Part shown: piece by piece, positions 29,821-43,564 of the stretch
How the letters are laid out: each line of letters starts with the position of its first letter
Position numbering within the stretch: position 1 is the first letter of the stretch
Assembly: GCF_008634025.1 (NCBI RefSeq)
Contig: NZ_PDCM01000001.1
Span: forward strand, 4,124,501 to 4,188,500
Origin: Streptomyces albofaciens JCM 4342
Lineage (GTDB): Bacteria; Actinomycetota; Actinomycetes; Streptomycetales; Streptomycetaceae
DNA: 64,000 nt
Direction of reading: 5' to 3'
Notes under the pieces: model-generated
Told to the model about the DNA's origin: nothing
The model's database searches: none
Seen by the model: only the letters and a program-made list of their open reading frames with translations
Program-made: the position numbers and the translations under genes

Positions 29821-31050
29821 ATGGCCGAGTTCACCATGGAGCTGAGCGACGAGCAGAAGGAGGTCCGGGACTGGATCCACGGCTTCGCCGCCGACGTGAT
29901 GCGCCCCGCGGCCGCCGAGTGGGACGAGCGCGAGGAGACCCCCTGGCCGGTGATCCAGGAAGCCGCCAAGATCGGCCTGTACTCGCTGGACTTCTACGCC
30001 CAGCAGTTCTTCGACCCGACCGGCCTCGGCATCCCCATGGCCATGGAGGAGCTGTTCTGGGGCGACGCCGGCATCGGCCTGTCGATCGTCGGCACCGGCC
30101 TGGCCGCCGTCGGCGTGCTGGCCAACGGCACCGAGGAGCAGATCGGCACCTGGATACCGCAGATGTACGGCGACGCCGACGATGTGAAGGTGGCCGCCTT
30201 CTGCTCCTCCGAACCGGACGCGGGCTCCGACGTGTCCGCGATGCGCACCCGCGCCGTCTACGACGAGGCCAAGGACGAGTGGGTGCTCAACGGCACCAAG
30301 ACCTGGGCGACCAACGGCGGTATCGCGAGCGTCCACGTCGTCGTCGCGGTCGTCGACCCCGACCTCGGGCCCAAGGGCCACGCCTCCTTCATCGTCCCGC
30401 CGGACACCCCCGGCCTCTCCCAGGGCCAGAAGTTCAAGAAGCACGGCATCCGCGCCTCGCACACCGCCGAGGTCGTCCTGGAGGACGTGCGCGTGCCCGG
30501 CCACTGCCTGCTCGGCGGCAAGGAGAAGCTGGACGAGCGGCTGGCGCGGGCGCGGGAGCGGGCGAAGAACCCCGGCGGGGAACGCGTGAAGAACGCCGCG
30601 ATGGCCACCTTCGAGGCGTCCCGCCCGGCGGTCGGCGCCCAGGCCGTCGGCATCGCCCGCGCCGCGTACGAGGTGGCGCTCGACTACGCCAGGACCCGCG
30701 TCCAGTTCGGCCGCCCGATCATCGACAACCAGGGTGTCGCCTTCCAACTGGCCGACATGCGCACCCAGATCGACGCCGCCCGCCTCCTGGTCTGGCGCGC
30801 CTCCTGGATGGCCACCACGGGCAAGCCGTTCACCTCCGCCGAGGGCTCCATGTCCAAGCTCTTCGCCGGCGAGACCGCCAAGAAGGTCACCGCCCAGGCG
30901 ATGCAGATCCTCGGCGGCAACGGCTACACCCGCGAGTACCCGGTCGAGCGCATGCACAGGGACGCCGCCATCTACACCATCTTCGAGGGCACGAGCGAGA
31001 TACAGCGGCTCGTCATCGCCAGGACGGTGGCCGGGGTGCCGATCCGGTAG
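29821..31050 (+). CDS. Acyl-CoA dehydrogenase
   Basis: 409 residues. FAD enzyme of fatty-acid beta-oxidation. N-terminal helical domain ([20 protein letters not shown]), FAD/substrate strand [27 protein letters not shown], then [21 protein letters not shown] and the C-terminal [15 protein letters not shown] with the catalytic Glu of EGTSE. Residues ~365-395 contain [17 protein letters not shown]. The final 93 bp, coding [16 protein letters not shown] to the stop, are repeated exactly 10.9 kb downstream because a genomic island has inserted here, so the 3' end is element-borne or recombined but identical and in frame. Regulated probably by the divergent TetR protein. Confidence 0.94.
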
Positions 31051-31051
31051 G
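30959..31051. repeat. attL-like 93-bp direct repeat (left island boundary)
   Basis: Identical over 93 bp to 41898-41990, starting GGGACGCCGCCATC and ending GATCCGGTAGG. It covers the last ~29 codons and stop of the acyl-CoA dehydrogenase gene. No mismatch was found. Confidence 0.93.
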
Positions 31052-31086
31052 GCGTTCGTCCAGCAGGACACGTGTAGATGCGCTGG

Positions 31087-31128
31087 CCAATGAAAGTCTC
31101 GCTCGGATTGCCGAGCGAGGCCCATTGG
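31087..31128. other. Nested hairpin near the left island end
   Basis: An outer 7-bp stem GCCAATG / CATTGGC (31086-31129) encloses a perfect 9-bp stem CTCGCTCGG / CCGAGCGAG with a 4-nt ATTG loop. It starts 35 bp inside the left att repeat. It may be a recombination or transcription-blocking structure. Confidence 0.6.
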
Positions 31129-31153
31129 CGCTATCGATCACTCGGAAGCCGAG

Positions 31154-31172
31154 TTTGGGAGGTATTTGGGAG
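31154..31172 (+). other. Paired TTTGGGAG sites, left end (integrase arm-type candidate)
   Basis: TTTGGGAG at 31154-31161 and again at 31165-31172, 11 bp apart. The same spacing and near-identical sequence recur at 41772 and 41783 beside the right repeat. Sites lie ~105-115 bp from the att repeat at each end, as arm-type binding sites of tyrosine recombinases often do. Confidence 0.5.
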
Positions 31173-31288
31173 ATCGCTTGCGGCGGGGAGGCGTGAACGG
31201 GGGGAACGGCCCGTACTCGCGGCGGTCGATGACCGGCTGGAGGGAGTCCTCCCCGCATCCGATCGGCTCGCCGGGACTGTACCCGCTG

Positions 31289-32101
31289 TCGGACGTCGTC
31301 CTCAGCGGTCGGTACGCGGTAGCAGATGAGGACGCTGGCCAGGCCGACGAAGGCCAGGAAGTGCTCGGCCTTGCGCTCATAACGGCGGTGCAGGCGACGG
31401 CAGCCGCTCAGCCAGGACAGCGTACGCTCGATCACCCAACGGTGCCGCCCCAGCCTGCTGGAGGACTCCACCCCGCGGCGCGCGATGCGTGGCACGATCC
31501 GCCTGCGTCGCAGCCAGCTGCGCAGGCAGTCGAAGTCGTAACCCTTGTCTGCGTGGAGCTGGTCCGGGCGGCGACGCCGGGGACCACGGCGCGAGCGGAT
31601 GGGAGGGATGCCGCGCATCAGCGGGATAAGGGCCTGACTGTCGTGCACGTTGGCGGCGGAGATGCCCACCGAGATCGGCAGGCCGTTGCGGTCACAGATG
31701 ACGTGGACCTTCGCCCCGTTCTTGCCGCGATCGGTCGGATTCGGTCCCGTCAGAGGCCCCCTTTGACAGCGCGGACACTGATCGAGTCGATTGCGCAGCG
31801 CGACCAGTCCACGCCGCCGATGGCACCGAGCTGGTCCAGCAGCACCCGGTGCAACTTGGCCCACACCCGGGCCGCGGACCATTCCGTGAAACGCCGGTGC
31901 ACCGTCTGCCAGGAGGCACTGAAGACCGGCGGCAACTGCCGCCAGGTACAGCCCGTGGTCGCCACAAAGACGATCGCGGCCAGCACTGCACGGATCACAG
32001 CGCCGACGTCCCCCTCCCTGCGGGCGCTGCGGCGCCGACGGCACCACGTCCTGAAACAGCTCCCACAGCCTGTCCGGCACCAACCGCTCGACTATCCCCA
32101 T
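31289..32101 (-). pseudogene. IS5-family transposase, frameshifted
   Basis: Starts MGIVERLVPDRLWELFQ at 32101. After RPQGGGRRR near 32000 the frame is lost by one base, and the correct sequence RAVLAAIVFVATTGCTWRQL continues in another frame; this breaks the protein. A second frame change at AAAGGGGG (about 31762-31770) joins AVKGG to PLTGPNPTDRGKNG and is the -1 slippage site usual in this IS group. DDE-domain parts: VDWSRCAIDSISVRA (first Asp), KVHVICDRNGLPISV, HADKGYDFDCLR (second Asp), RWVIERTLSWL (Glu). No stop occurs before the IS end. Confidence 0.8.
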
Positions 32102-32142
32102 GCCCAGAACAACGAGTCACCGCCAACTGAGACATCGTCTTA
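31289..32142 (-). mobile_element. IS5-family (IS427/IS1647-like) insertion sequence copy
   Basis: About 850 bp. The left end (GACGTCGTCCTCAGC region, 31292-31306) and right end (CTGAGACATCGTCTTA, 32127-32142) form an imperfect inverted repeat. The interior encodes an IS5-type DDE transposase on the minus strand. Ends are estimated to within several bases, and no target duplication could be confirmed. Confidence 0.75.
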
Positions 32143-32761
32143 GCTGTGCCTATGGCGGCGCAGGGCTGCAATCTGCGCAATCTGCCGGCTTTATTCGCAA
32201 CTCGGTGCAACTTCCTGGTATCGGCGACGTCGCTGCGGAAGGCTAGTGCCGACCGGCTTCGCAGCATCTCCCGGCATGGAGCCCGGTGGCCGACTGCGAA
32301 GCAGAGTAGCCAGGGTTTCGGCGTCCACCCCACCCACGTTTTCCAGCCACTTCCTGAGGGCGCCAGACCGTGCCGAGAAAGGGGGAGAGCGTGCGCAGAA
32401 CGGCTGCCCAAGCGGCAACACCAGGGATAATGGCAGGTCAGAGAAAAGAGCACAGCTCTTGTTGTGCTTCTTATGTGCACCTATTGATTTCTTGATCTAG
32501 CTGCACACGCGTGGCCCGATCTTGTCGATCGGCTACGGTCCTCATTCACCAGCGACCACCGGCCCGCCCGCAGGGCCCTGTGTCACTTCTATGTCAACTG
32601 ATCTTGTGTTCGGCCGGTTGACCGGAGAGGTCGACCCGCGACTCACGTGAGTCACGGGGGTCCGAGGCGCTTGCACCATCCGTCCAGTACGGCGGACGGG
32701 CCGCTAGTCCCAACTGTCGCCTTATCCCGGGTTAACACATCGGACTACCTGGAGGTTTGTG
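32143..32761. other. Island non-coding stretch with palindrome and remnant frame
   Basis: 619 bp without a firm gene. A 76-codon minus-strand frame at 32191-32421 has a protein-like stretch (LRKWLENVGGVDAETLATLL) and may be a remnant cut by the IS. The perfect 14-bp palindrome GACTCACGTGAGTC lies at 32640-32653; half of it (ACGTGAGTCAC) recurs at 33216-33226. GTCAACTGATCTTGTGTTC near 32593 resembles the CATCAACTGATGTTC motif found elsewhere in the island. Confidence 0.5.
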
Positions 32762-33031
32762 ATGTTCCGAAGGTACCGGTCGGACACCGGCCTGCGCGGG
32801 GGTTCGGCGCTTCCCGGGCCCGAGGGCTGGCGGCAGGTGCAGGGTGGTTTCGCCGTCGATCACTACCCCCGAAATTTCGGGGGTGGTGGCTCTGGGGCGG
32901 CCGGCAGACCACGTCCCAACGTTGGGAGGTGGCCCGGCTCTGCCCGACGTCAGTCGGTGCTCCTGAGTTGCTCCTGGACCTCGGGGGTGACCGCTCGGGT
33001 GGATGTTACCGGTCGTGGCTTCTTCAGGTAG
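32762..33031 (+). CDS. Micro-ORF 1, MFRRYR family (hypothetical)
   Basis: 89 codons from ATG 32762 with GGAGGT eight bases upstream. The first ~30 residues (MFRRYRSDTGLRGGSAL ... WRQVQGG) resemble those of a second small frame at 33060, at both DNA and protein level. The later part runs across the palindromes and is Gly/Arg-rich, so the true gene may be shorter or decayed. Basic N-terminus, no membrane segment. No family recognised. Confidence 0.4.
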   Translation: MFRRYRSDTGLRGGSALPGPEGWRQVQGGFAVDHYPRNFGGGGSGAAGRPRPNVGRWPGSARRQSVLLSCSWTSGVTARVDVTGRGFFR

Positions 33032-33059
33032 TAGAGCGGCAACAATCGGGAGGTCAGCG

Positions 33060-33170
33060 ATGTTTCGAAGGTACCGGCTAGCAGCTGGGCTCCGTGGGAG
33101 GTCGGCGGTTTCCATGCCGGTGAACCGGCGGCAGGTGCAGGGTGGTCCGGGTGCCAGCGGCAGTACCTAA
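33060..33170 (+). CDS. Micro-ORF 2, MFRRYR family (36 aa, hypothetical)
   Basis: 36 residues from ATG 33060, preceded by GGGAGGT at a good distance. Sequence MFRRYRLAAGLRGRSAV ... RRQVQGGPGASGST. Nine of the first 14 residues and the RQVQGG block match micro-ORF 1; the surrounding DNA (GATGTTYCGAAGGTACCGG, then GGCGGCAGGTGCAGGGTGGT) is a diverged duplication. Whether the peptide is made is unknown. Confidence 0.4.
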   Translation: MFRRYRLAAGLRGRSAVSMPVNRRQVQGGPGASGST

Positions 33171-33652
33171 CCACCTCCCATTAATGGTAGGTGCCGGGGC
33201 TCAGGCCCGTGACTGACGTGAGTCACAGACCACCTCCCAACGTTGAGGGCTGGTCACCACCTCCCAACGTTGGGAGGTGGTCAACTGGGCAGTGCTGCTT
33301 CACGTGCAGCGCTGCCGGGGGCCACACAGGGACGTTCCGGCCCGGTCTCGGTCGGGCTGGCCGGTGGGCGACTCTGGTCCGCAAAAGACTTTCCCCGCCG
33401 AAGCTGCGGGATGAGCTATTCCGCGAGCTTTCCCTAAACTTGCCTTATGAGGTGCCGCTTCGCCGAATTACCGAAGACGGAAAGAGGTGACTGAACATCT
33501 ATTGATGACCTCTTGACCATCAACTGATGTTCAGGAGCGCAGCTCAGAGGCAGAAACGGAATACAACATTCCGCCAGGAGAATGTTGCGAGCACCCTCGT
33601 AAGAATGCAATGCTTCCCCGCAGCGAATTTCCCCGACCGGAGGTTCCCGGTG
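33171..33652. other. Island intergenic region with operators and hairpins
   Basis: 482 bp without a supported gene. It begins with three of the palindromes, then becomes AT-richer from 33380. It contains the long hairpin at 33492-33535 and a second inverted repeat CAACATTC-N8-GAATGTTG at 33565-33588, both just beyond the 3' end of the toxin gene. Confidence 0.6.
33492..33535. other. 44-bp two-tier hairpin with a recurring motif
   Basis: Outer 9-bp arms CTGAACATC / GATGTTCAG, two unpaired bases each side, then inner 6-bp arms TTGATG / CATCAA around a 10-nt loop. The right half, CATCAACTGATGTTC, recurs as CATCAGTTGATGTTC near 34400, and in weaker form near 32593. It may be a terminator for the convergent transcript or an operator. 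Confidence 0.6.
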
Positions 33653-33891
33653 TTATACCTCGACGTATGCCACGACGGTGATCGTGCCGAGTGTGGTGGC
33701 GTAGTAGATGACGCGCACGCTGTCCTGCTGGTATTCGCGCAGGGGCTGTCGGCGAGGGGCCGGCCGACCTCGGGGTCGGCGGCGATGGCGTCGAGGACGG
33801 GGTCGAGCCGGGCGAGGTCGTCGTCGGTGAGGGTGGCGAGCTGGCGTTCGGCGGTCTCGTGGAAGGTGACGAGGGCGCGGCGCTTAAGCAA
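33653..33891 (-). pseudogene. RelE/ParE-type toxin, frameshifted
   Basis: Begins at TTG 33891, overlapping the antitoxin stop: LKRRALVTFHETAERQLATL, then DPVLDAIAADPEVGRPLAD. At about 33748 one base is missing; the next frame gives PLREYQQDSVRVIYYATTLG and TITVVAYVEV up to a TAA at 33653-33655. Joined, the protein would be ~79 residues with the RelE/ParE pattern (basic helix, PLREY, VRVIYY strands). Such toxins cleave ribosome-bound mRNA or poison gyrase. The frameshift should inactivate it, unless it is a base-calling error. Confidence 0.75.
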
Positions 33892-34087
33892 CGTGGTGGG
33901 CCGCGTCACGGGGCGGGAGGCCGCGTTCGGCGCGGATGTCGTCCCAGGTGCTGCAGTTCTCCAGGTCGACGCCTTCGTCGGCGAGTTGGAGGAGCGCGTA
34001 GGCGAGGGCTGGGTCCTGGGGGAAGGCGTCGCGTGCGGCGCGCCGCATGGAGTCGGCTTCGTCGGGGTCGAACACGATGCGGGCCAT
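33884..34087 (-). CDS. Antitoxin of type II toxin-antitoxin pair
   Basis: 67 residues from ATG 34087, with AGGAGG upstream. Sequence MARIVFDPDEADSMRRAARD to GLPPRDAAHHVA. Short, acidic, with an N-terminal strand and a helix, as in RelB-like antitoxins; the end overlaps the toxin start by eight bases, which is the usual coupling. The antitoxin appears intact while the toxin is frameshifted. An AT-rich upstream region could carry its promoter and operator. Confidence 0.75.
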   Translation of the reverse strand: MARIVFDPDEADSMRRAARDAFPQDPALAYALLQLADEGVDLENCSTWDDIRAERGLPPRDAAHHVA

Positions 34088-34604
34088 GGGGTCCTCCTGG
34101 CGCTGGTCCCGGCACGACGGTAGCGCAGGGGGCGGCATGTCAGCGCCACCCTTCAACCGCCCCTTCAGGGGAAGGTGCGCGAGAACGATTCCGCAGGAAC
34201 GAGAATCAGCCATCTCGCGCACTAGCAGAACGCCCTACATGCCCACTTTTCTTCTAATTCGTCAAGTGGTTACTCGCCTCCGACTGCACCCCTCCCGCGC
34301 AATTGCGACGCACTTGCGCACCGTAACACCGCTGGCCAGAGGGCAGAAAAACTAATTAAACACGCAGGTTAACAAGGGGGCAAGATTGAATCACGTGATC
34401 ATCAGTTGATGTTCGGCTGATCTCGTTGCTGACGTTCGGCCGGATCCCGCCTATCGACTACCGTCCTGCCCAAGCAAGGCCATCAGCACCACAGCACAAC
34501 GGCCGGGTGCCCCGCGTGTTCGCGAAGCCCCGGCCGCTGCAGGAACAGGCGAGCGCCAACTCGCCTGCAGCAAGCAATCCCGTCTGTCCAAGGAAGGAAT
34601 CGCT
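34088..34604. other. Island intergenic region, AT-rich, divergent promoters
   Basis: 517 bp between the antitoxin and the DUF6907 gene. The 34200-34420 part is notably AT-rich for this genome. CATCAGTTGATGTTC lies near 34400, and CACGTGATC just before it. No gene is supported; short frames here look random. Likely holds promoters in both directions. Confidence 0.55.
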
Positions 34605-35051
34605 ATGTCTTCGAGCGTACCGTCAAGCCTCCCCTCCGCCCACGCGGGCTCTGAGGCCGTCCCCCTCCCCCGCCTTTCCGCGACGTCGGTGCGCGGTGTC
34701 CCGGTGCACGTGGAGTGCCCGTCGTGGTGCGTGACGGATCACGCGGCCGAGGATCTGGCGTTCCTGGAGGACGTGCACCACTACGGGCCCGCAGTGGGCG
34801 TGACGGTGCCGGTGTTCGGTGGCGGCACGGAGACCGTGCTGGTGGCGCACCTCGCGCTGTGGCCCGCGGACGGCAAGGGCGTCTACGTGGTCGTGAACAT
34901 CGACGGTTCCGCTTTCGAGCGGGGGCGTTCTTGTGCTCCTGAGGGGCGCGATGCGCCGCTGCTACTCCAGGATGCCGCGATCCTTCAGTTCTTCGAGGAT
35001 GCGCTGCGAGAGGTCGCGGATCTGAGCGGCTGTAAGTGTGTCGGAGGATGA
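34605..35051 (+). CDS. DUF6907-like protein
   Basis: 148 residues from ATG 34605 with AAGGAAGG upstream. After a Ser/Pro-rich start, the core reads HVECPSWCVTDHAAEDLAFL and later VHHYGPAVGVTVP, the Cys/His-containing signature of DUF6907, common on actinobacterial mobile elements and phages. The C-terminal ~45 residues differ from the usual family end and overlap the convergent XRE gene by 90 bp, so the 3' part may be rearranged. Function unknown; probably zinc-binding. Confidence 0.7.
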   Translation: MSSSVPSSLPSAHAGSEAVPLPRLSATSVRGVPVHVECPSWCVTDHAAEDLAFLEDVHHYGPAVGVTVPVFGGGTETVLVAHLALWPADGKGVYVVVNIDGSAFERGRSCAPEGRDAPLLLQDAAILQFFEDALREVADLSGCKCVGG

Positions 35052-35378
35052 GATGACGGCACTGGCCACCGCGTCGCGCACCGCAGTCTCCAGCGATACC
35101 GCCAAGGCGGCGGTGCGTCCACGGTCAGGCGGCGCCGCCGTCGCGGCAGCCTCCGCTCCTTCCAGGACGGCCAGGCAGGATCCAGGGGCTAGCTGCAACG
35201 CCTTGTCGATCTTGCCGTAGCTCGCCTCGCGAATGGGCTTCCCCATCTCCACGCGTTTATAGGTGTCCTTGGACATGCCGGCCGCTTCGGCCACGGCGGT
35301 AATCGCCAAGCCAAGCTCCAGCCGAACCTCGCGCACGAAGCGAGCAAGGTGGTCATAGTCGTAAGAGGCACCCGTCAT
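34962..35378 (-). CDS. XRE-family helix-turn-helix regulator
   Basis: 138 residues from ATG 35378 (or ATG 35387). Helix-turn-helix in residues ~12-65: LARFVREVRLELGLAITAVA, EAAGMSKDTYKRVEMGKPI, with the SKDTYKRVE recognition helix. The C-terminal helices (DTLTAAQIRDLSQRILEELK) may dimerise. No Shine-Dalgarno is present, and a CATAAT box sits six bases before ATG 35378, suggesting a leaderless mRNA. It is divergent from the antirepressor gene with a 179-bp gap, a layout like a phage immunity switch. Confidence 0.85.
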   Translation of the reverse strand: MTGASYDYDHLARFVREVRLELGLAITAVAEAAGMSKDTYKRVEMGKPIREASYGKIDKALQLAPGSCLAVLEGAEAAATAAPPDRGRTAALAVSLETAVRDAVASAVISSSDTLTAAQIRDLSQRILEELKDRGILE

Positions 35379-35557
35379 GGCAGACATTATGCCAACTGCG
35401 GGGCACTTTAAACCAGCATGCTCGCGGAAGTTAGTCGAAGTTCTAGCGAGATAGCGCACAGGAGGGCTACAGTGGAGTGGCGGGCCCGCCCTGAACCGCC
35501 AAGTACTGAGCGGGCCCAGTCGATCAATCCGCTGTGTCCAAACAGATCGGAGAGACC

Positions 35558-36397
35558 ATGTCCATGGTCGCATCCTCGAACGCCGCCCCGCAGATCGGAT
35601 CCTTCGAATTCCACGGCGACACCGTCACCGTGGTCACCAACGACCGCGGCAGTTGGGCCGTCCTCGGCCAGCTGTGCCGCAATCTCACCCTGGACCCCGA
35701 AGCGCAGCGACAGGCTCTGAGTCGAAAGTCCTGGTCACAGGGACGGACCTGCATTACACAGGTCCGTCTCCCGGAGGATGACCGGGCCCGTCAGCACTTC
35801 CTCATCCACGAGCGCATCGTGCCGATGTGGCTGGCCAACATCACGACCAGCCGTATTACCGACGAGGCGAAGCGAGACAAGGTAGAGCGCGCTCAGGTCG
35901 AGCTGGCCGACGCGCTGTACAACTTCGTCTCTGGTCGCCCGTCGGCTCCAGTTCCTCGCCCCGAGATGACGAAGCTGGAGGCGCTTCGGGCAGCACTGGA
36001 GTCGGAGGAGGGACGGCTCGCCGCCGAGGCCCGCGTCAAGGAGCTGGAGGCCCCGGCAGCGGCGTGGAACGTCCTCGCCGACGCGTCGGGCGACTACTCG
36101 CTGCGCGACGCCGCCCACATCCTCAACAGGGATCCGGGCATCTCGACCGGCCAGCACCGGCTGATGAAGTTCATCCGTGAGCTGGAGATGGTGGACCGCA
36201 AGGGCGTGCCCTACGCGAAGCACAACGCCCACCTGACGGAGCGGCCCCAGACGTACCTGCACCCGCAGACCCGCGAGGTGATGCTGGCCAAGCCCCAGAT
36301 CCGCATCACGGTCCGCGGCCTGCAGTACCTGCACGGCAAGCTCGGCGGCGTCGCGCCGCTGCAGTACGAGCAGCCGGGGCTTGACGGCGCTGCCTGA
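35558..36397 (+). CDS. Phage antirepressor-like protein (P22AR N-terminal domain plus KilA-C-like domain)
   Basis: 279 residues from ATG 35558 (CGGAGAG upstream). Residues ~15-110 match the P22 antirepressor N-terminal type: FEFHGDTVTVVTNDRGSWAV, then ALSRKSWSQGRTCITQVRLP and FLIHERIVPMWLANI. A helical linker follows, and residues ~175-265 resemble a KilA-C DNA-binding domain (SLRDAAHILNRDPGISTGQH, TYLHPQTREVML, ITVRGLQYLHGKL). Such proteins inactivate a phage or island repressor. It lies divergent from the XRE gene, its plausible target. Confidence 0.85.
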   Translation: MSMVASSNAAPQIGSFEFHGDTVTVVTNDRGSWAVLGQLCRNLTLDPEAQRQALSRKSWSQGRTCITQVRLPEDDRARQHFLIHERIVPMWLANITTSRITDEAKRDKVERAQVELADALYNFVSGRPSAPVPRPEMTKLEALRAALESEEGRLAAEARVKELEAPAAAWNVLADASGDYSLRDAAHILNRDPGISTGQHRLMKFIRELEMVDRKGVPYAKHNAHLTERPQTYLHPQTREVMLAKPQIRITVRGLQYLHGKLGGVAPLQYEQPGLDGAA

Positions 36398-36477
36398 CGC
36401 TCCTGTGCGCGCCGTGTGCGCCGTCGCCATTCGGTCTGCACGCGCTCACGGTGGACTGCAGACGGAAGGGGTTCCCC

Positions 36478-36555
36478 ATGGCGGACTGCGATCACGAGTG
36501 GGTGCCGTGGAGCGGCGAGCAGCGGTGCCGGAAGTGCGGTGCGACGAAGCGCTAG
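36478..36555 (+). CDS. Zinc-knuckle micro-protein, 25 aa
   Basis: MADCDHEWVPWSGEQRCRKC plus GATKR. Cys4, His6, Cys17 and Cys20 form a C-x-H-x10-C-x2-C pattern able to hold one zinc. GGAAGGGG lies seven bases upstream of the ATG. Such very short zinc-ribbon genes occur on actinobacterial phages and mobile elements; function unknown. It sits between the antirepressor and phosphotransferase genes on the same strand. Confidence 0.6.
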   Translation: MADCDHEWVPWSGEQRCRKCGATKR

Positions 36556-36619
36556 GTTGCTCGTTGAGCTGGTGAGGGGTCGCGCCTGCGGCCCCTCGTC
36601 TCGTCGTGAGGGGGTCGGG

Positions 36620-37399
36620 GTGTCGCGTACTGGGTGGTGGGAGCTGCCGGCCGGGGTGTGGGCGGCCGTCGAAGAGCGCACGGGCCCGGTGGCCGGTGCA
36701 CGGGATGTCGCGGACGGTCTGACGTGCAGTACGGCGGCCGTGCTCACGACCGCCTCGGGCCCGGTGTTCATGAAGGGTGTCCCGGCCGGCGACGCGAGGG
36801 GCCGGGCAGCGCAAGCGATGGAGGCCGCGGTGAACGCGGCGGTGCTCGGCGTGGGCCCGCGCCTGCTGTGGCGGGTCGTGGCTGGGGGCTGGGACCTGCT
36901 CGGCTTCGAGTACGTCGAGGGTCGGCACGCGGACTTGTCGACTGGCTCGGCGGACCTGGCTCTGGTGGCCGGCGTGCTGCGCGCGGCTCAGGCCGTGCGG
37001 GCGCCGGAGGGTGTGCCGTCGTTCGCCGACCGGTTCGCCGAGGTGCTGCCTCCCGGCCAGCTGGAGCTGCTGCGCGGCGACAGCCTGCTGCACACCGATA
37101 CGAATCCGCACAATCTGCTCGTCGGCGACGGCCGGGCGTGGCTGGTGGACTGGGCGATGCCTGCGGCCGGCCCGGCGTGGGTGGACGTGGCGTACACGAC
37201 CGTGCGGCTCATGGAAGCCGACTGCCCGCCGGGCGAGGCGCTGGAGTGGGCGGCGCAGTTCCCCGCCTGGGCTGCGGCCGACCCGCGCGCCGTGGGAGCG
37301 TTCGTGGCGGGCGCGTGCCGGCTGTGGGAGCGGCAGGTGGGGGCCCGGGATGCCCGGCCGAGCAATGGCCGCTTCACCGTCTTGGGGATGGCTGCGTGA
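36620..37399 (+). CDS. Aminoglycoside phosphotransferase-fold (APH) protein
   Basis: 259 residues from GTG 36620, with GAGGGGG upstream. The kinase C-lobe is clear: LLHTDTNPHNLLVGDGRAWL is the catalytic loop (HxDxxxxN) and VDWAMPAAGP supplies the metal-binding Asp (DFG equivalent). The N-lobe has VFMKGVPAG with the ATP Lys. The family phosphorylates antibiotics or small metabolites; this divergent short member occurs on Streptomyces mobile elements and its substrate cannot be named. Resistance is not implied. Confidence 0.8.
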   Translation: MSRTGWWELPAGVWAAVEERTGPVAGARDVADGLTCSTAAVLTTASGPVFMKGVPAGDARGRAAQAMEAAVNAAVLGVGPRLLWRVVAGGWDLLGFEYVEGRHADLSTGSADLALVAGVLRAAQAVRAPEGVPSFADRFAEVLPPGQLELLRGDSLLHTDTNPHNLLVGDGRAWLVDWAMPAAGPAWVDVAYTTVRLMEADCPPGEALEWAAQFPAWAAADPRAVGAFVAGACRLWERQVGARDARPSNGRFTVLGMAA

Positions 37400-37465
37400 C
37401 GTCGGGCGGCGCGCTGGCGCTCCGGTCTCCCCCCTTCCGGGTCGAGATGTCGCGCGGCATGGGCG

Positions 37466-37906
37466 CTACGGGTTCTGTCTACGCTCGCGCCAGCGCCTGC
37501 GGACGACCAGGAACACGAACAGGCCGACGATGGGGCAGGACGCAACGACCGTGGGGAGGCCCGCCGGCCACCCCTCACCGACAGGCGCGGGGATGGCCAA
37601 TGCGGTGATCAGTGGAACACCGCACAGGAGAATTGCCACTCCCCACGACCAGACCGTTGCAAAACTGTTCCACCAGCTCCGAGATTGCACCCACGGTTCG
37701 ATGTACAGAAGTCCGGCTGAAACCGGCCACACGACGGCCAGGGCAATGACCGGGGAAAGGGCGAGCCCCTTTTGGCCGATCAGCTCGCGGATGAAGGACG
37801 CCCCCGGATAAGCCAGAGCGAAGCCCAGAGTCACACCGACGGTGCTGTAGCCAAAGGCTTGCTTCACGCTTACCTGCTCGCTGTCTTCTGATGCTTTCCC
37901 TAGCAT
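37466..37906 (-). CDS. Integral membrane protein, unknown function
   Basis: 146 residues from ATG 37906. Four hydrophobic segments at about 20-36, 50-70, 85-105 and 117-136, and a basic C-terminus (RRRWRERRQNP) that should stay inside the cell. No recognised family. The secreted-protein gene lies 40 bp upstream on the same strand, so the two are likely cotranscribed and may work together. Confidence 0.7.
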   Translation of the reverse strand: MLGKASEDSEQVSVKQAFGYSTVGVTLGFALAYPGASFIRELIGQKGLALSPVIALAVVWPVSAGLLYIEPWVQSRSWWNSFATVWSWGVAILLCGVPLITALAIPAPVGEGWPAGLPTVVASCPIVGLFVFLVVRRRWRERRQNP

Positions 37907-37946
37907 GGCTGCTCCTGGCTATCGTGTGGCCGGTACTCTCTTGCCG

Positions 37947-38480
37947 TCAGGAGCAGGCGCTGGCGACTGCGCCGAGGCCGCTCACGGCCATGACGAAGTC
38001 GGCGAACTCCTGGCCGGCCTCCGGCGGGGCGTACCCTTCCTTGAGGTATCTCCAGGCGTACTTGACGAACTTTGCGTATCCGCCGAGCTTGCCGACGATG
38101 CGGGCGACCTTCGCGACCGGTATGCCGTTCTCCGCGGCGAACTTCGCGACGGCGACACTGCAGCCCAGCCAGTTGATACGCAGGACCGTACCGTCGTTGG
38201 TGGCTGCGACCGACCCGCTGCCCTTCATGGCCCGGTTCAGGTACTCGATGACCTCACGGTCGTTGAGGTTCTTCCTCTGCAGGTGGTCCGGGGCGTTTTC
38301 GATGGCGTGCGCGAAACGTTCCAGGGCCTTGGTCGCTGCCGCGTCGCTGACGTTCGGTGCAGCCGACACGGCGGCCGGAGCCGCGCGGTGGGTGACGGCG
38401 TTGGCTGCCGGGCTGGCGAGCCCGAGTGTCACCGCCGCCAGCGCCGTTGTCGCAGCGATCCGTATCGTATTAGACTTCAC
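37947..38480 (-). CDS. Secreted protein, unknown function
   Basis: 177 residues from GTG 38480 (GGAGTG eight bases upstream). Residues 1-28 are a signal peptide (KSNTIRIAATTALAAVTLGL, ending ANA). The mature part begins with an Ala-rich linker and is mainly helical: ATKALERFAHAIENAP, DREVIEYLNRAMKG, NWLGCSVAVAKFAAENGIP, and a C-terminal SACS. Two cysteines may pair. The LGCSVAVAKF...GIPVAKVARIVGKLGGY pattern recalls small actinobacterial exported proteins of unknown role. Upstream of the membrane-protein gene. Confidence 0.72.
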   Translation of the reverse strand: MKSNTIRIAATTALAAVTLGLASPAANAVTHRAAPAAVSAAPNVSDAAATKALERFAHAIENAPDHLQRKNLNDREVIEYLNRAMKGSGSVAATNDGTVLRINWLGCSVAVAKFAAENGIPVAKVARIVGKLGGYAKFVKYAWRYLKEGYAPPEAGQEFADFVMAVSGLGAVASACS

Positions 38481-39238
38481 TTGTTGCACTCCTTGTGCGA
38501 TGCCGGGGAAGAGGGCATAGCGGAGTGACCGGTGAATAGCCTGCAAGCATAGACCGGTTACCCCGAGCCTTCTTCCCCATTCTTCTTCCTCAGGTCGCAG
38601 CAGCCGGGATCAGTGCCGCGTTAACGGGAAGCTAACACATCAAAAGGCATGCCCCCAGCGATCTTCCGCGATAAGCAACATGCCGCCCAACGGACTAACG
38701 CACATCGATATGCCAGGGGTTCGCGGTGGCGCCGTTTGGCCCGTGGAGCATCGCGGCCGGGAAGCGGCAGACGTGTCCCGGCTCCGGCCAGCCGGCCCAG
38801 TAGAGCAACGCAGCGAACCCCCGCCCGACCACCAGGCGGGGCTTTCTTCGTCAGCTTCGAAGCGTGCCCGGGCTTCGACGACGGTCACGTTGATCGTGAG
38901 GTCGTAGATGATGGCATCGTGCGTCGGCTCGGCCTGTAGCAGCCTGGGCACCATGGCCGTAGCACGTGGTGGGGGCATGGCAGGAGACAGCCTACCCGCC
39001 CCGGTTCAGGGCGAAGAGCCCTCCTGAGCACGTTAGTTGCCTGCTGGCCACCTTATAGTTCGCATCACAGGTACGAGATTCAGCCGTTCAATGACAACCA
39101 ACAACGACCGTCAGTGACCGTCAGTGGACGCCAATGAACAATGACGGACGCCCCTGGACGAGCGGCAGGTGCGTCGCGCCTGGCCGAGGCGCATCCGCGG
39201 CCTGCGCACTGCTCAGACGAGTGCGGCACACTCCAGGC
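38481..39238. other. Island gene-poor region with a plus-strand terminator
   Basis: 758 bp without a firm gene. A short plus-strand frame ending TCPGSGQPAQ before a stop at about 38803 resembles tails of small zinc-finger proteins of phages, but its only start is a GTG giving ~22 residues. A terminator follows it (38818-38848). A minus-strand 112-codon frame at 38640-38978 looks like shadow sequence. Two tandem 10-bp repeats GACCGTCAGT lie at 39106-39125, before the nuclease gene. Confidence 0.5.
38818..38848 (+). terminator. Rho-independent terminator
   Basis: CCCCGCC - 9-nt loop - GGCGGGG followed by CTTTCTT on the plus strand, a classic hairpin plus U-rich tail, unusual in this genome. 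It supports a short plus-strand transcript upstream. Confidence 0.75.
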
Positions 39239-39736
39239 ATGGCGAGCTACCAGCAGCGGAAAGCCATCGGCGGCGCACACGAAGAACACGTCGCGCACGA
39301 ACTCACCCTGCGTGGTTGGGACGTCAGTCCCTGGGGGCAGGGCACTCTGACCGCGAACGTTCGCCGGGTCCTACGGACAACAGACAGCTCGATCCGGTGG
39401 ATGCCTGACCTGATTGCCGTGCGGGGCGAAGACCTTGCTTTGGTCGACTGCAAGAGCCGCATGACCAGCGGCACAACTCACCGGCATGCGGTGGAACGCG
39501 CGGCGGTGCGCGCTCACCTCCAGCTCACCGCGTGGACTTACCTTCCTGTCTTCTATGTGTTCGACGATCTGGGCGTGCTCAGCGCTCACGACGTGCTGAC
39601 ACACGGCCGGAACGGACCATGGGCGTCACGGGGGTCGCGCGCGGCCTACTACCTGATCAGTACTGCGGTCGCTGTGCCGTTCGATGCTGTCTTTGGCGTG
39701 CACGAACACCGTGACCAGCTGGACACTGCCGCTTGA
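39239..39736 (+). CDS. PD-(D/E)XK nuclease-like protein
   Basis: 165 residues from ATG 39239. N-terminal GGAHEEHVAHELTLRGWDVS is the helix with the conserved Glu; MPDLIAVRGEDLALVDCKSR supplies the PD...(D)xK catalytic pair with Lys in DCK. The fold is that of restriction-endonuclease-like or Holliday-junction-resolvase-like nucleases. No methylase is nearby, so a repair, transfer or defence role is possible. No Shine-Dalgarno is obvious; two tandem 10-bp repeats sit ~115-135 bp upstream. Confidence 0.72.
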   Translation: MASYQQRKAIGGAHEEHVAHELTLRGWDVSPWGQGTLTANVRRVLRTTDSSIRWMPDLIAVRGEDLALVDCKSRMTSGTTHRHAVERAAVRAHLQLTAWTYLPVFYVFDDLGVLSAHDVLTHGRNGPWASRGSRAAYYLISTAVAVPFDAVFGVHEHRDQLDTAA

Positions 39737-40060
39737 CGGGCAGTGCCTGCCTGTCGCACCGTTCCCACCCCGGTGCCTGCCGCGAAAAGGAAGCACATCG
39801 CCTGCTGAAGGAGTGCGACCACGGGCACGCCGCAGATAGCACAGCCCGGACGGAAGACGCCCCGAGTGGAAGTCGGCGTTACATGGGCCTTCCGTATTCT
39901 CGCAGCGTCCTCGCGGCTCATGGTCCATACCGCTCGAAGTGCCGCCGCCCTTTGGGCGCTGGTTGAGGACGAGCGGACCGTGCGGTGGCAGCCGGTGGCT
40001 GTGAACGGGGAGTGGCCTGGGAGGGGCTTCGGTCTGAAGAAACCCCGCCCCCGATCGGGG
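39737..40060. other. Island intergenic region
   Basis: 324 bp between the convergent nuclease and HNH-nuclease genes. It contains GGGGCTTC...GAAG..CCCC (40022-40046) and the 12-bp palindrome CCCCGATCGGGG (40049-40060) directly at the HNH stop codon, probably a terminator pair. Weak open frames on both strands are not supported. Confidence 0.5.
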
Positions 40061-41396
40061 TCAGTTGGCGGTGTGCTCGCGGTGCCAGGCGAAGAACGGG
40101 GCCCGGTGTTCGTCGTAGTCGGCCACGGTCCGTCCGGCGAGATGGGCCGCCGCGGCTGCCAGGTCCGTGGTGTCGTTGCTGCGCGGGCTGGCCGCGATGA
40201 CCCCGTCGGTGTCGACGTAGACGAAGCCGTGCTCGAAGAGTTCGTCGCAGCCCATGAGGCAGGCGGGCATGATGTTGGCCATCAGGAGCCGCTCTTCGTG
40301 GGTGGCTTCGCTGCGGCGTTTGATGTGCGCGGCCCTGATCATGCGGGTGGGCAGGGTCCGGCCGCACAGCGCGCAGGTCGCGTGCGGGTGACTGCCGAGG
40401 AGTCGGCGCCGGAGCTTCTGCTGTTCGCGTCGGACGAGGACCTGTGCGACCGCGTTGGATTCACCGTCGTGCTGGACGCTGCCTTCGCCGGGAGGCGGGG
40501 CTACCGGCGGCAGTTCGGTGGCGAGCTGGGCTACCGAGGCAGTGCCCGAAAGAAGGAGGGCGGCGCCCTGCTTGTTCGCCGACAGCCGCAGGGCTTCCAT
40601 GGCCTCGTCGCCCAGGGCAGCTCCGTGGACCTGCTGTTCTTCGTCGAATACGTCGATGCCGATGCGTTCGGGGTAGTCGTCGTCGGGCCAGACGGGCTTG
40701 GTGTCGGTGAACAGGGGCCGGGTGACCTGGGTGATGATGACCCGCTGGAGTGTGGCATCGGCCCAGCCGCCCGCCGCCCAGGATCGGCTGCTCCCAGGGA
40801 AGGTCGATACGGAAGAAGTCCGCATTGTGGGCGGCGATGTCCGCAAGCGCGGTCTTGATATGCCCGGCGTAGGCTTCGCACGCGTTGGCCAACTGGGTGC
40901 ACGCGCCGACCAGGTCCGCGATCAGCGGCTCATCCGCCTGAGCCTGGGAAGGCGGGGCGCCTGTCCCGATGCAGCGCTTGAAGTAGCGCTGGAAGCTGTC
41001 TGCGGCTTCACCGGCGTGGCTGGCCCGTACCGTGGTCGCACACGCCTGGGCCTCGCCGAGGAACCGTTCCATCAGTTTCGCAGCGTGCCGCCAGGAGGCG
41101 GCAGCGTCCTGGGCCTTCTCGGCGGAACCCCGGTAGCGGTCACCACCTCCGGGCGCGAACTGGTCGTACCAGGCGGTGTCGCCGACGACCTCGGGCAGCT
41201 CACTTCCCAGGCCCAAAAAGCGGGAGGTGCAGTTCGTGGATGGGTCTCCCATGCCGTTGGTCGCGTCTTCCTGCTTGCCGAGCAGGTCGGCGCTGATCTG
41301 GTTCCCGGTGGCCATGTAGGCGCGGGCGCTGCGCATCAGGCCCGCGCCGGTGGCGCCCATGACGTAGGAGCTGTATCCGATCTGGTCCAGGGTGGT
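40061..41396 (-). pseudogene. Large protein with helical N-terminal domain, EVE-like segment and HNH nuclease; 5'-truncated and frameshifted
   Basis: The C-terminal frame (40061 to about 40800) has ITQVTRPLFTDTKPVWPDDD, resembling EVE-type domains, then CALCGRTLPTRMIRAAHIKR, NIMPACLMGCDELFEHG and a final AFFAWHREHTAN, an HNH nuclease with two CxxC-like metal sites. One base out of frame, at a GGC run near 40795, the upstream part reads DQIGYSSYVMGATGAGLMRS to IDLPWEQPILGG, a helical WXG100/ESX-like domain. This part has no start codon context and ends abruptly where the integrase remnant begins at ~41397. Either one toxin-like gene was broken twice, or two genes were fused. Confidence 0.65.
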
Positions 41397-41839
41397 GGCT
41401 GCGGCCGGCGGAGGTATGCGGCCAGCGCTGGACGGCCATCGACTTGAACCTCGGCACGCTGGAGGTCGCCAACACGCGGACGATGGTCGGCAACACGAGG
41501 GTGCTGGAGAAGGACACCAAGACGGTGTCCGTTGAGCGGGCGCTGCCGCTGCCGAAGTGGCCGTGGGAGGCACTGAACAGGTTCCGTGCCCAGCAGGCGC
41601 GGGAGAAGCTGGCCGCGGGTGCGGGGTACACCGACACCGGGTACGTCCTCGTGGACGAACTGGGGCTGGCGCTGAACACGCGGCACTTGCGGGAGCACGC
41701 CTACCGGCTCATGGAGGAGCTGGGACTGCGCCGCGTGCGGCCAATCTCGCCGTGGCTAAGTGATCTCCCTGTGTGGGAGAAATTTGGGAGACGATCATGC
41801 GGACGGAACCCGGAGGAACCAGTAAGCAAACCGGCGTAA
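41397..41839 (+). pseudogene. Tyrosine integrase remnant, truncated at both ends
   Basis: Homology starts abruptly with LRPAEVCGQRWTAIDL, which is the GLRRGE box containing the first catalytic Arg. It continues through a DTKTVSVERALPLPKW stretch, YVLVDELGLALNTRHLREHA and LMEELGLRRVRP, then departs just before the HxLRH box. The His-Arg and nucleophilic Tyr are therefore missing. The N-terminal SAM-like and core-binding domains are also missing. The gene points towards the right att repeat 58 bp away, the normal place for an integrase. It cannot excise the island. Confidence 0.8.
41772..41790 (+). other. Paired TGTGGGAG/TTTGGGAG sites, right end (integrase arm-type candidate)
   Basis: TGTGGGAG at 41772-41779 and TTTGGGAG at 41783-41790, 11 bp apart, in the same orientation and spacing as the pair at 31154/31165; the next bases (GAYCG..TGCGG) are also similar. 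Confidence 0.5.
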
Positions 41840-41897
41840 CCCCCGTCAAATGAGGTGGGTGAGCTGGGGAACGAGTAGGTTCCAAAGGTCACCGATC

Positions 41898-41990
41898 GGG
41901 ACGCCGCCATCTACACCATCTTCGAGGGCACGAGCGAGATACAGCGGCTCGTCATCGCCAGGACGGTGGCCGGGGTGCCGATCCGGTAGG
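41898..41990. repeat. attR-like 93-bp direct repeat (right island boundary)
   Basis: Exact copy of 30959-31051. It contains the coding end of the acyl-CoA dehydrogenase with its TAG at 41987-41989 but has no gene in front of it. The sequence beyond (41991 on) should be the original downstream flank of the dehydrogenase gene. Confidence 0.93.
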
Positions 41991-42070
41991 CGGCCCGCAC
42001 CGGGAGGCACGGCCCGTACCGGGCGCCGCCCGCCGGCAGTACCTTGGCGCCCTGTACCGGAGGAGGCGCC

Positions 42071-42416
42071 GTGGACGAGGAACTCGCCGCCCTCCTGGCC
42101 GGAGCGATCGGGCTCGCCGGGGCGGTGATCGGGGCCGCGGTCGGCGGGCCGGCCGGCTATTGCGCGGCTAAGCACAGCGCGGAGGGCCATGCTCGGGCCG
42201 GTGGAGGTCCACGACGCCGCACGCGCGCTGATCAGCGCGGCCGATGCCTTCGTGGCGGCGTACCGTGAACCGACCGTGCTGCCGCAGGCCGAGGAACCGG
42301 TACGGCTCGACGACGTACGGGAGCGGGTCGCAGGCCGCAGGGCGGACGTACCCGCCTGCCTGAGCACCTTCTCCGCCGCCTGCCGCAACGTCCTGTTGCG
42401 GCAGGGCGACAGCTGA
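42071..42416 (+). pseudogene. Small membrane-anchored hypothetical protein, apparently frameshifted
   Basis: GTG 42071 (GGAGGAGGCGCC upstream) starts DEELAALLAGAIGLAGAVIG and continues through one membrane helix to AAKHSAEGHARA. About 42213 an extra base shifts the frame; the natural continuation VEVHDAARALISAADAFVAA to LLRQGDS ends at 42416. Joined, a ~114-residue protein with an N-terminal anchor and helical cytoplasmic part. Alternatively a second ATG at 42189 starts a separate 75-residue gene. Family unknown. It is the first gene beyond the island. Confidence 0.55.
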
Positions 42417-42436
42417 CCGGGGCGGCCCCGGCCCGT

Positions 42437-42649
42437 TCAGGCGGCCATGTCCTGCCGCGGCACCACCTTGAACACGTCGCCGTGTGCGGAGTACACCACG
42501 TGCACATCCTCCCCGGCGGCGCGCAACACCTCCACCACCGCGTCCAGCATCGGCAGCGACCGGGCACTGCCCGCGGGCAGCTGGCGCGGTAACGACACGG
42601 TGGGCACGCGGAGCGGTTCTTCAACGACGTTCATCACAGATGTCCCCAT
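42437..42649 (-). CDS. Small hypothetical protein, 70 aa
   Basis: 70 residues from ATG 42649 (an in-frame ATG at 42634 is an alternative). Sequence includes PMLDAVVEVLRAAGEDVHVV then YSAHGDVFKVVPRQDMAA, suggesting a compact alpha-beta fold. No signal or membrane segment. No family recognised. Separated from neighbours by 20 and 135 bp. Confidence 0.55.
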   Translation of the reverse strand: MGTSVMNVVEEPLRVPTVSLPRQLPAGSARSLPMLDAVVEVLRAAGEDVHVVYSAHGDVFKVVPRQDMAA

Positions 42650-42784
42650 CTCGGCACGGAACTTCCCCCGTCCGCCGGCACCACCGTGCCGACGGCATGG
42701 CCAGCATCCGGCAGGGCGATGAACGGAAGCTCAACGACTGCGGGACGGCGTCAATCCGTGCAGGCCGGGGCGGTTTCGGCCGGT

Positions 42785-43564
42785 TCAGCCGGCGGCTTGC
42801 GGCGCCAGCGCCGCCGCGACCGCGCGGACGTACCCCTCCGGGTTGTCCAGCATGATGTTGTGCCCGCAGTCGGGCACCGGCACCACCCGTACACCGGCCG
42901 CCGTCAATTCCTCGGCGCCCGGCAGCGGGGCATCGGCCCCGGGCAGCAGGTACGTACGCGGAATCGCCAGCTTCAGCAGCAGCTCGCGCATCACCGGTTC
43001 GCTGCCCCGGGTGAGGTGCACGGCGCTGCGGTGCAGCGCCTCCAGACCGGCCAGCCGCATCGTGGACCACCAGTGCGCGCCCGCGGCGTCCCGTACCCGC
43101 TCCCAGCCGCCCGCGAGGAACTCCTCCTCGGAGAGCGCGGCGATGCCCCCGCTGCCCGGCCGGTCCCGCCGTGGGGTGACCGGGTCGAGGTTGGCGTCGA
43201 TCAGGACGAGCCGCGCCACCAGGTCCGGGTGCCGGGCGGCGAGCACGATCGCCACCGAGCCGCCCATGCTGTGGGCGATCACGTCCGCCGCGCTCACCCC
43301 GGCGGCCCGCAGCGCCTCGGCGACGGCGTCGGCGTGTGCCTCCAGGGTGTAGGAGAAGCCGGTGGGCCGGTCGCTGATGCCGAACCCGAGCAGGTCCAGG
43401 AGCAGCGAGCGGTGGCCCGCCAGACGCGGGTGCACGGCCGTCTCGGCGAAGTAGGCGGGTGAAGTGGCGCCAAGGCCGTGCAGGTAGACGCGGACCGGCT
43501 CCTCGCCCGGCAGTTCCACCCAGCGGATACGGTCGCCCTCGGGCGTCACCACGGCGTTGCGCAC
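42785..43564 (-). CDS. Alpha/beta hydrolase
   Basis: 259 residues from ATG 43564 with CAGGAGAG upstream. VYLHGLGATSPAYF gives the oxyanion-hole HG; LLDLLGFGISDRPTGFSYTL is the typical haloalkane dehalogenase/epoxide hydrolase-like segment; nucleophile Ser in VIAHSMGGSVAIVLAARHPD; acid in LLPGADAPLP region; His in PVPDCGHNIMLDNPEG. Probably a cytoplasmic esterase or hydrolase; substrate unknown. Monocistronic, divergent from the P-loop gene. Confidence 0.9.
   Translation of the reverse strand: MRNAVVTPEGDRIRWVELPGEEPVRVYLHGLGATSPAYFAETAVHPRLAGHRSLLLDLLGFGISDRPTGFSYTLEAHADAVAEALRAAGVSAADVIAHSMGGSVAIVLAARHPDLVARLVLIDANLDPVTPRRDRPGSGGIAALSEEEFLAGGWERVRDAAGAHWWSTMRLAGLEALHRSAVHLTRGSEPVMRELLLKLAIPRTYLLPGADAPLPGAEELTAAGVRVVPVPDCGHNIMLDNPEGYVRAVAAALAPQAAG

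Follow-up and report, generated by a model that had tools for sequence, protein, structure and literature searches.

The window analysed here is a 64-kb stretch of the genome of Streptomyces albofaciens JCM 4342 (G000, 9.25 Mb), and the subject is an island within it that is bounded by two copies of the 3' end of an acyl-CoA dehydrogenase gene. This island is very probably a decayed integrative element, phage or phage-like, that used the 3' end of the dehydrogenase gene as its bacterial attachment site (attB). The reading was drawn from sequence comparison and is based on five observations: the direct repeat at the left and right attachment sites (attL and attR), an empty site in a close relative (G047), viral contigs whose own attachment site (attP) carries the same arms beside a single integrase family, repeat pairs in those arms, and islands at the same gene in two other Streptomyces genomes (G174 and G335). 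Coordinates of all features are collected in Table 1.

Attachment cores and the empty site

The two 93-bp blocks described in the first-pass annotation were 100% identical, and the exact match broke off at both edges. No other same-strand repeated 40-mers were present in the window, and a whole-genome search of G000 returned these two copies of the block alone. The left block was likewise confirmed as the end of a complete acyl-CoA dehydrogenase gene with full-length domains. The closest solved relatives of the product were acyl-CoA dehydrogenases, with one of which the motif FEGTSEIQR was aligned. In acyl-CoA dehydrogenases as a family, the catalytic base is the Glu in FEGT. The right block proved to be an orphan, as proposed, its reading frame being open for just ~15 codons ahead of the motif. 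A tRNA attachment site was set aside, as a search of the window yielded no tRNA gene. The G+C content of 1-kb bins was 0.64-0.69 in the island (one exception at 0.725) and 0.71-0.75 in the adjoining bins; low G+C was not exclusive to the island, as the window also dips to 0.665-0.69 at 2-5 kb.

The close relative G047 carried no island and a single copy of the block. When the gene end was fused to the right flank and the resulting query was aligned to G047, positions 1-695 matched as one piece at 92%, save for a short gap that is weighed below; the rest of the flank resumed past a 232-bp insertion of G047's own. This insertion (contig C72, 35809-36040) lies, relative to the window, inside the gene downstream of the empty site. 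A further relative, G375, also held a single copy, and a later part of the window's right flank was found within a few bases of its gene (85% over 319 bp). An uninserted relative with contiguous flanks, named in the first-pass annotation as a check, was therefore available, and neither island-free relative carried a second copy of the block. A foreign origin of the block was also considered on the basis of its divergence from G047 (9/93 in the block vs 34/800 upstream, p 0.035). This argument was dropped because the pair G047-G375 has a similar, non-significant excess (8/93 vs 40/802, p 0.15) and because close orthologue pairs differ in both directions.

The pattern TGGGAG-N5-TGGGAG was observed twice in the window against 0.01 expected, once at each island end (31156-31172 and 41774-41790). 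These pairs are probably integrase arm sites. Using a relaxed pattern (11 matches across both strands of the window), a pair on the stop-codon side was located +174 to +177 from the motif in 9/13 viral attachment regions as well as in the window, G174 and G335. No relaxed pair was present at that offset in L123, L124, L126 or L131.

Viral attachment modules, the cognate integrase and related islands

The IMG/VR database was scanned with a degenerate DNA pattern for the motif, and 11 contigs were recovered, in all of which the gene end extended to the stop codon. The gene end was clearly orphan in nine of these loci because the DNA upstream was not a dehydrogenase gene; orphan status was not counted for L121 and L123, which were cut by the edge of the examined sequence. 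Ten of the 11 loci had, 97-207 bp from the core, a tyrosine integrase belonging to a single family (60-100% identical to that of L129; the cognate integrase hereafter), and its 3' end was toward the core in every case. The integrase lay on the stop-codon side in eight and on the opposite side in two (L124 and L131), from which position it would adjoin the orphan copy after integration. The records of both L124 and L131, with 60% integrase identity, contained a terminase-family match. No such integrase was found in the 1.4 kb examined on one side of L123. A second scan, seeded with the integrase itself, returned seven loci, among them L164, L168, L169 and L170, which are the same contigs as L129, L130, L122 and L125 of the first set. 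The gene end adjoined the integrase in 6/7, in L165 as gene sequence up to the contig edge; L167 ends at the integrase stop codon.

The arms of the core were shared as well. The stop-codon-side arm (31113-31253) was matched by blastn at 68-75% in viral contigs L121, L122, L125, L126, L128 and L129, and the right island end (41772-41990) had blastn matches in six viral contigs. Matches to both window arms flanked a single core in L122, L125, L128 and L129. The two island ends, joined in silico, aligned along the viral attP regions, the 60% members L124 and L131 aligning well just in the core. This arrangement suggests that the matching viral contigs are free (non-integrated) forms. Because viral sequences carry the same gene end beside one integrase family, the dehydrogenase gene end appears to be a recurrent address of mobile elements in Streptomyces and not a single case.

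Searches of named collections were also carried out. Neither the 93-bp block nor the island had a DNA match among named phages, and all integrase matches there were below 60% identity. Actinophage RP3 has a tRNA gene as its attB. It is a Streptomyces phage with a related integrase (X80661), the first-ranked match of the L129 integrase in the phage collection, but at 27% identity over 93% it lies far outside the cognate family. Proteins related to the cognate family numbered 341 at E <= 1e-80, and these need not all share the address. The block was matched by 34 plasmid records, with an acyl-CoA dehydrogenase annotation or no feature at that place among the matches listed (20); 14 plasmid records matched the island, restricted to its IS5-family part.

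In the window, a remnant of the cognate integrase was found at the left island end, beside the intact gene and with its 3' end toward the core; the rest of the integrase gene is missing. In viral contigs and in G174 the integrase frame is complete or nearly so. The remnant was 60% identical to the L129 integrase over 35 aa.

For comparison within the genus, 30 genomes with two block matches were taken by eye from a 392-genome table; the three with both matches <10 kb apart on one contig were opened and the other 27 were left out. All three (G174, G335 and G328) contained an orphan gene end. G174 has a complete dehydrogenase gene with the orphan 5.5 kb away and an 81-bp exact repeat, and its cognate integrase is a nearly full-length frame whose alignment begins at residue 18; among the open reading frames (ORFs) listed there, the longest from start to stop has 372 aa. 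G335 has a complete gene, an orphan 8.6 kb away and an integrase C-terminus (74%, 124-residue alignment). A single mismatch interrupts its repeat near the 5' end; provided that neither copy has since mutated there, the crossover would lie downstream of the mismatched base. The G328 orphan (L173, G328:C1:4591500-4604500) lies 7.4 kb from a complete gene and is identical to that genome's own gene end at 87/93 bases, with an altered motif and similarity that extends past the stop codon.

The cognate integrase was detected at E <= 1e-60 in 6/392 genus genomes and in 1/394 genomes drawn from the class, the latter also a Streptomyces. Two of the six have it beside a dehydrogenase gene: G174 at the same gene and G040 at a paralogue. 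In G040 an 80%-identical integrase adjoins the end of another acyl-CoA dehydrogenase (MQIFEGTNQIQRLVISRGLAR; motif FEGTNQIQR); the far end of this element was not found in ~25 kb. A second pattern scan with the FEGTNQIQR-type end recovered two viral contigs. In L177 the 5' flank of such an orphan holds an integrase of 56% identity, and L176 has no integrase of the cognate family in the examined sequence. These observations support, but do not prove, an ability of the cognate family to change address among dehydrogenase genes. A broader generalisation, put forward tentatively, is that the catalytic-motif-end DNA of the superfamily of acyl-CoA dehydrogenases is the address of one integrase family, which has shifted from one paralogue to another; each insertion would then swap up to the last 26-31 codons of the enzyme for the element's copy.

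Site-specific insertion at the dehydrogenase 3' end with the frame kept complete, the central proposal of the first-pass annotation, is upheld by the G047 empty site, the viral attP modules and the G174 and G335 islands. In the proposed mechanism, the tyrosine integrase of the element would have recombined a short region inside the gene 3' end (attB) with an attP bearing a copy of that gene end. The crossover would have produced an attL comprising the gene, its last codons now supplied by the element and its protein unchanged, and an attR comprising the orphan gene end and the former downstream flank. The assignment of this recombination to the cognate integrase, and of the crossover to a position within the core, is inferred from the sequence arrangement. 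Decay is seen in three features: the integrase is cut down to a tail beside an IS5-family element, the interior has no recognisable relationship to the examined viral DNA, and a foreign integrase fragment adjoins attR. Given this decay, the island is probably no longer able to excise by itself.

Alternative readings and the kind of element

The integrase fragment beside attR (41396-41740) had been taken as the element's own enzyme. The earlier report of an integrase remnant 58 bp from the right copy fits the stop of the integrase-like ORF at 41839, but integrase similarity ends sooner, at ~41740, and the last ~33 codons are attachment-arm DNA. That this fragment chose the dehydrogenase site is very improbable. 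Its ORF does point at the orphan copy, which is common for integrases, and the dehydrogenase-site contigs L124 and L131 have their integrase on that same side. Against this, the fragment belongs to another family (85% to L146, 79% to L132) and did not significantly match any of the dehydrogenase-site integrases tested, and the DNA between it and attR is an arm match of the cognate family, whose tail lies at the left end. The dehydrogenase-end motif was found near none of the fragment's relatives in the examined sequence, which covered 29 genus-search loci (L004-L032, with ~1.5 kb on either side), 14 loci in genomes and 5 of viral origin; the three sets partly overlap and some loci end near the integrase. 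The fragment was therefore rejected as the cognate integrase. Even less credible is a partial gene duplication that involved no site-specific recombination and arose by slippage, transposition or homologous recombination. Duplication can yield long exact repeats, an insertion sequence (IS) is close by, and the G328 orphan has no integrase found beside it; duplication is contradicted, however, by the empty site in G047, the attP modules beside an integrase family, the arm repeats at a fixed offset and the islands of G174 and G335 at the same codons. Greater weight, though still on the unlikely side, is given to a cis-mobilizable passenger: an integrase-less island kept by its attachment sites and moved, if at all, by the integrase of a related phage in trans. 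In its favour, the truncation of the cognate integrase contrasts with intact cores and arm pairs at both ends; against it, no sign of movement was seen, and no full cognate integrase was found in G000 at E <= 1e-60.

Several observations weigh against a decayed phage-type element inserted by the cognate integrase. The G047 alignment has a 17-base gap exactly at the junction, immediately past the stop codon, and the L129 integrase matched the tail in the window island just at E 0.11. The interval between the gene and the orphan of G328 yielded neither an arm pair nor an integrase of the two families, so that an orphan need not stem from the cognate integrase; this orphan could mark an old island formed by another route, or a decayed one. 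Together with the gap in G047, it reduced confidence slightly. No dehydrogenase-end motif was found in the stretch examined around the integrases of G095, G049, G059 and G173 (67-43% identity). Attachment module aside, no convincing cargo common to the window island and the viral contigs was found among the matches listed; the label 'phage' is therefore based on the attP family together with a single antirepressor. Four of 14 related viral records contained a match to phrog_2 (terminase large subunit), two of these with an internal stop; in control genomes the figure was 11/14. An FtsK-type match was present in four of the 14 records, and no structural genes were found with PHROGs in ten ORFs of L169, L164 and L131. 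Some of the related viral contigs may be conjugative elements or fragments. The island is described as a phage-type element and may descend from a phage, from a satellite or from a conjugative element.

Table 1. Features of the island and its borders (window positions)
Feature	Position	Strand	Basis or remark
Complete acyl-CoA dehydrogenase gene, 3' end very probably the attachment site	29821..31050	+	409-aa ORF; Pfam Acyl-CoA_dh_1/M/N
attL core	30959..31051	+	Last 93 bp of gene, FEGTSEIQR motif to one base past stop codon; G047 empty-site comparison
One attP arm, stop-codon side of core; overlaps cognate integrase tail	31052..31253	.	31113-31253 matches G174 locus L098 (blastn, 77% over 141 bp, E 9e-28)
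Cognate tyrosine integrase remnant, last ~38 codons	31138..31260	-	71% to G174 integrase over 38 aa (tblastn, E 2e-6)
Probable arm-type direct repeat pair, 11-bp period, left end	31154..31172	+	Pattern TGGGAG-N5-TGGGAG; equal offset in other attachment sites
IS5-family insertion sequence (outer limits of similarity)	31298..32154	-	NCBIfam NF033580 above cut-off; plasmid matches
Helix-turn-helix regulator	34962..35573	-	Pfam HTH_31
Phage antirepressor-type protein, P22_AR_N + KilAC	35534..36397	+	Pfam; PHROGs anti-repressor Ant
Phosphotransferase-like ORF (APH family), cargo	36416..37399	+	Pfam APH, 28.8 bits (cut-off 23.2)
Non-cognate tyrosine integrase fragment, N-terminal part and C-terminal catalytic part missing	41396..41740	+	85% to L146, 79% to L132
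Other attP arm, 5' side of core	41741..41897	.	67-77% to L122, L125, L127-L130 over ~206-218 bp including core
Probable arm-type direct repeat pair, 11-bp period, right end	41772..41790	+	Pattern TGGGAG-N5-TGGGAG
attR core	41898..41990	+	Orphan copy of gene end
Host flank	41991..43500	.	Directly 3' of dehydrogenase gene in G047

Ten window ORFs were scanned. PHROGs returned the integrase fragment, the antirepressor, the regulator and one weak unknown; Pfam returned no FtsK match among them. Matches to defence genes in PADLOC were weak only. The divergent helix-turn-helix regulator and antirepressor genes (34962-36397) resemble a lysogeny switch remaining in the island. IS5-family similarity begins 38 bp beyond the integrase remnant, and the IS coordinates are given as limits of similarity because no terminal repeats were found above the threshold of the repeat search. 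In a region without recognised genes, a near-perfect 26-bp palindrome, CCACCTCCCAACGTTGGGAGGTGG, has copies at 32907-32932, 33228-33254 and 33256-33282, two of them just 1 bp apart; these are possibly operator or replication sites. A 105-bp direct repeat (32744-32848 and 33042-33146, 73% identical) adjoins the palindromes. Some relatives of the non-cognate integrase fragment were located at other sites, such as beside tRNA genes. In nine loci (L008, L009, L010, L011, L017, L019, L020, L021 and L022) they immediately precede the start of a single conserved gene, labelled hydrolase-like by eye, which forms a common 5'-end address.

Known targets and significance

Among the closest known systems are streptococcal integrative and conjugative elements (ICEs) whose tyrosine integrases target conserved protein genes at their 3' ends. 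Such targets include rplL, rpsI, rpmG, lysS and guaA, and account for 30/73 of the tyrosine-integrase streptococcal ICEs and decayed ICEs, with repeats of 12-54 bp (PMC4701971). Elements at guaA and prfC are further examples (PMC8138268). The present island resembles the streptococcal elements in its tyrosine integrase, in targeting a chromosomal protein gene at its conserved 3' end, in keeping the gene product and in a repeat that may hold exactly the gene 3' end; it differs in phylum, in target (mostly translation genes in the streptococci), in repeat length (73-93 bp exact here) and in that the streptococcal elements are conjugative (PMC4701971). Actinobacterial ICEs (AICEs) target tRNA genes in 100/144 cases, as cited in PMC4701971. 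AICEs of the pSAM2, SLP1 and pSE211 types share with the island an actinobacterial host, a tyrosine integrase beside the attachment site and a gene 3' end as target, but their targets are mostly tRNA genes (PMC3218068); the main text of that paper contains neither 'acyl-CoA' nor 'dehydrogenase'. The earlier remark that such targets are much less common than tRNA genes is thus fair for actinobacteria, whereas elsewhere it is well known for conserved protein genes to be targeted at their 3' ends (PMC4701971).

Acyl-CoA dehydrogenase genes have been integration sites before. The prophage prophiT49-3 of Mycobacterium abscessus has its attB in such a gene (attB-21, fadE MAB_1851), but it is described with a serine integrase acting at about position 280 of a 1140-bp gene that is probably inactivated (PMC9934374). 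A phiC31 pseudo-attB of Streptomyces rimosus also lies in an acyl-CoA dehydrogenase gene; there, a serine integrase placed a plasmid at a secondary site and the gene was disrupted (PMC7890619). No description of an acyl-CoA dehydrogenase 3' end as attB was found in a literature search limited to open-licence PMC papers. The strategy, a tyrosine integrase acting at a gene 3' end, is known; this address was not found in print.

The finding cautions that the integrase closest to an attachment site is not necessarily its maker, and it names an integrase family with a predictable attP and attB. The orphan fragment running from FEGTSEIQR to the stop codon is a search tag with which such elements can be found and delimited, and the gene end is a possible gene-sparing integration site for Streptomyces vectors. 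To the addresses of Streptomyces phages and islands, where known tyrosine-integrase targets are mainly tRNA genes, the dehydrogenase gene end would add a metabolic gene, entered at its conserved catalytic-motif codons.

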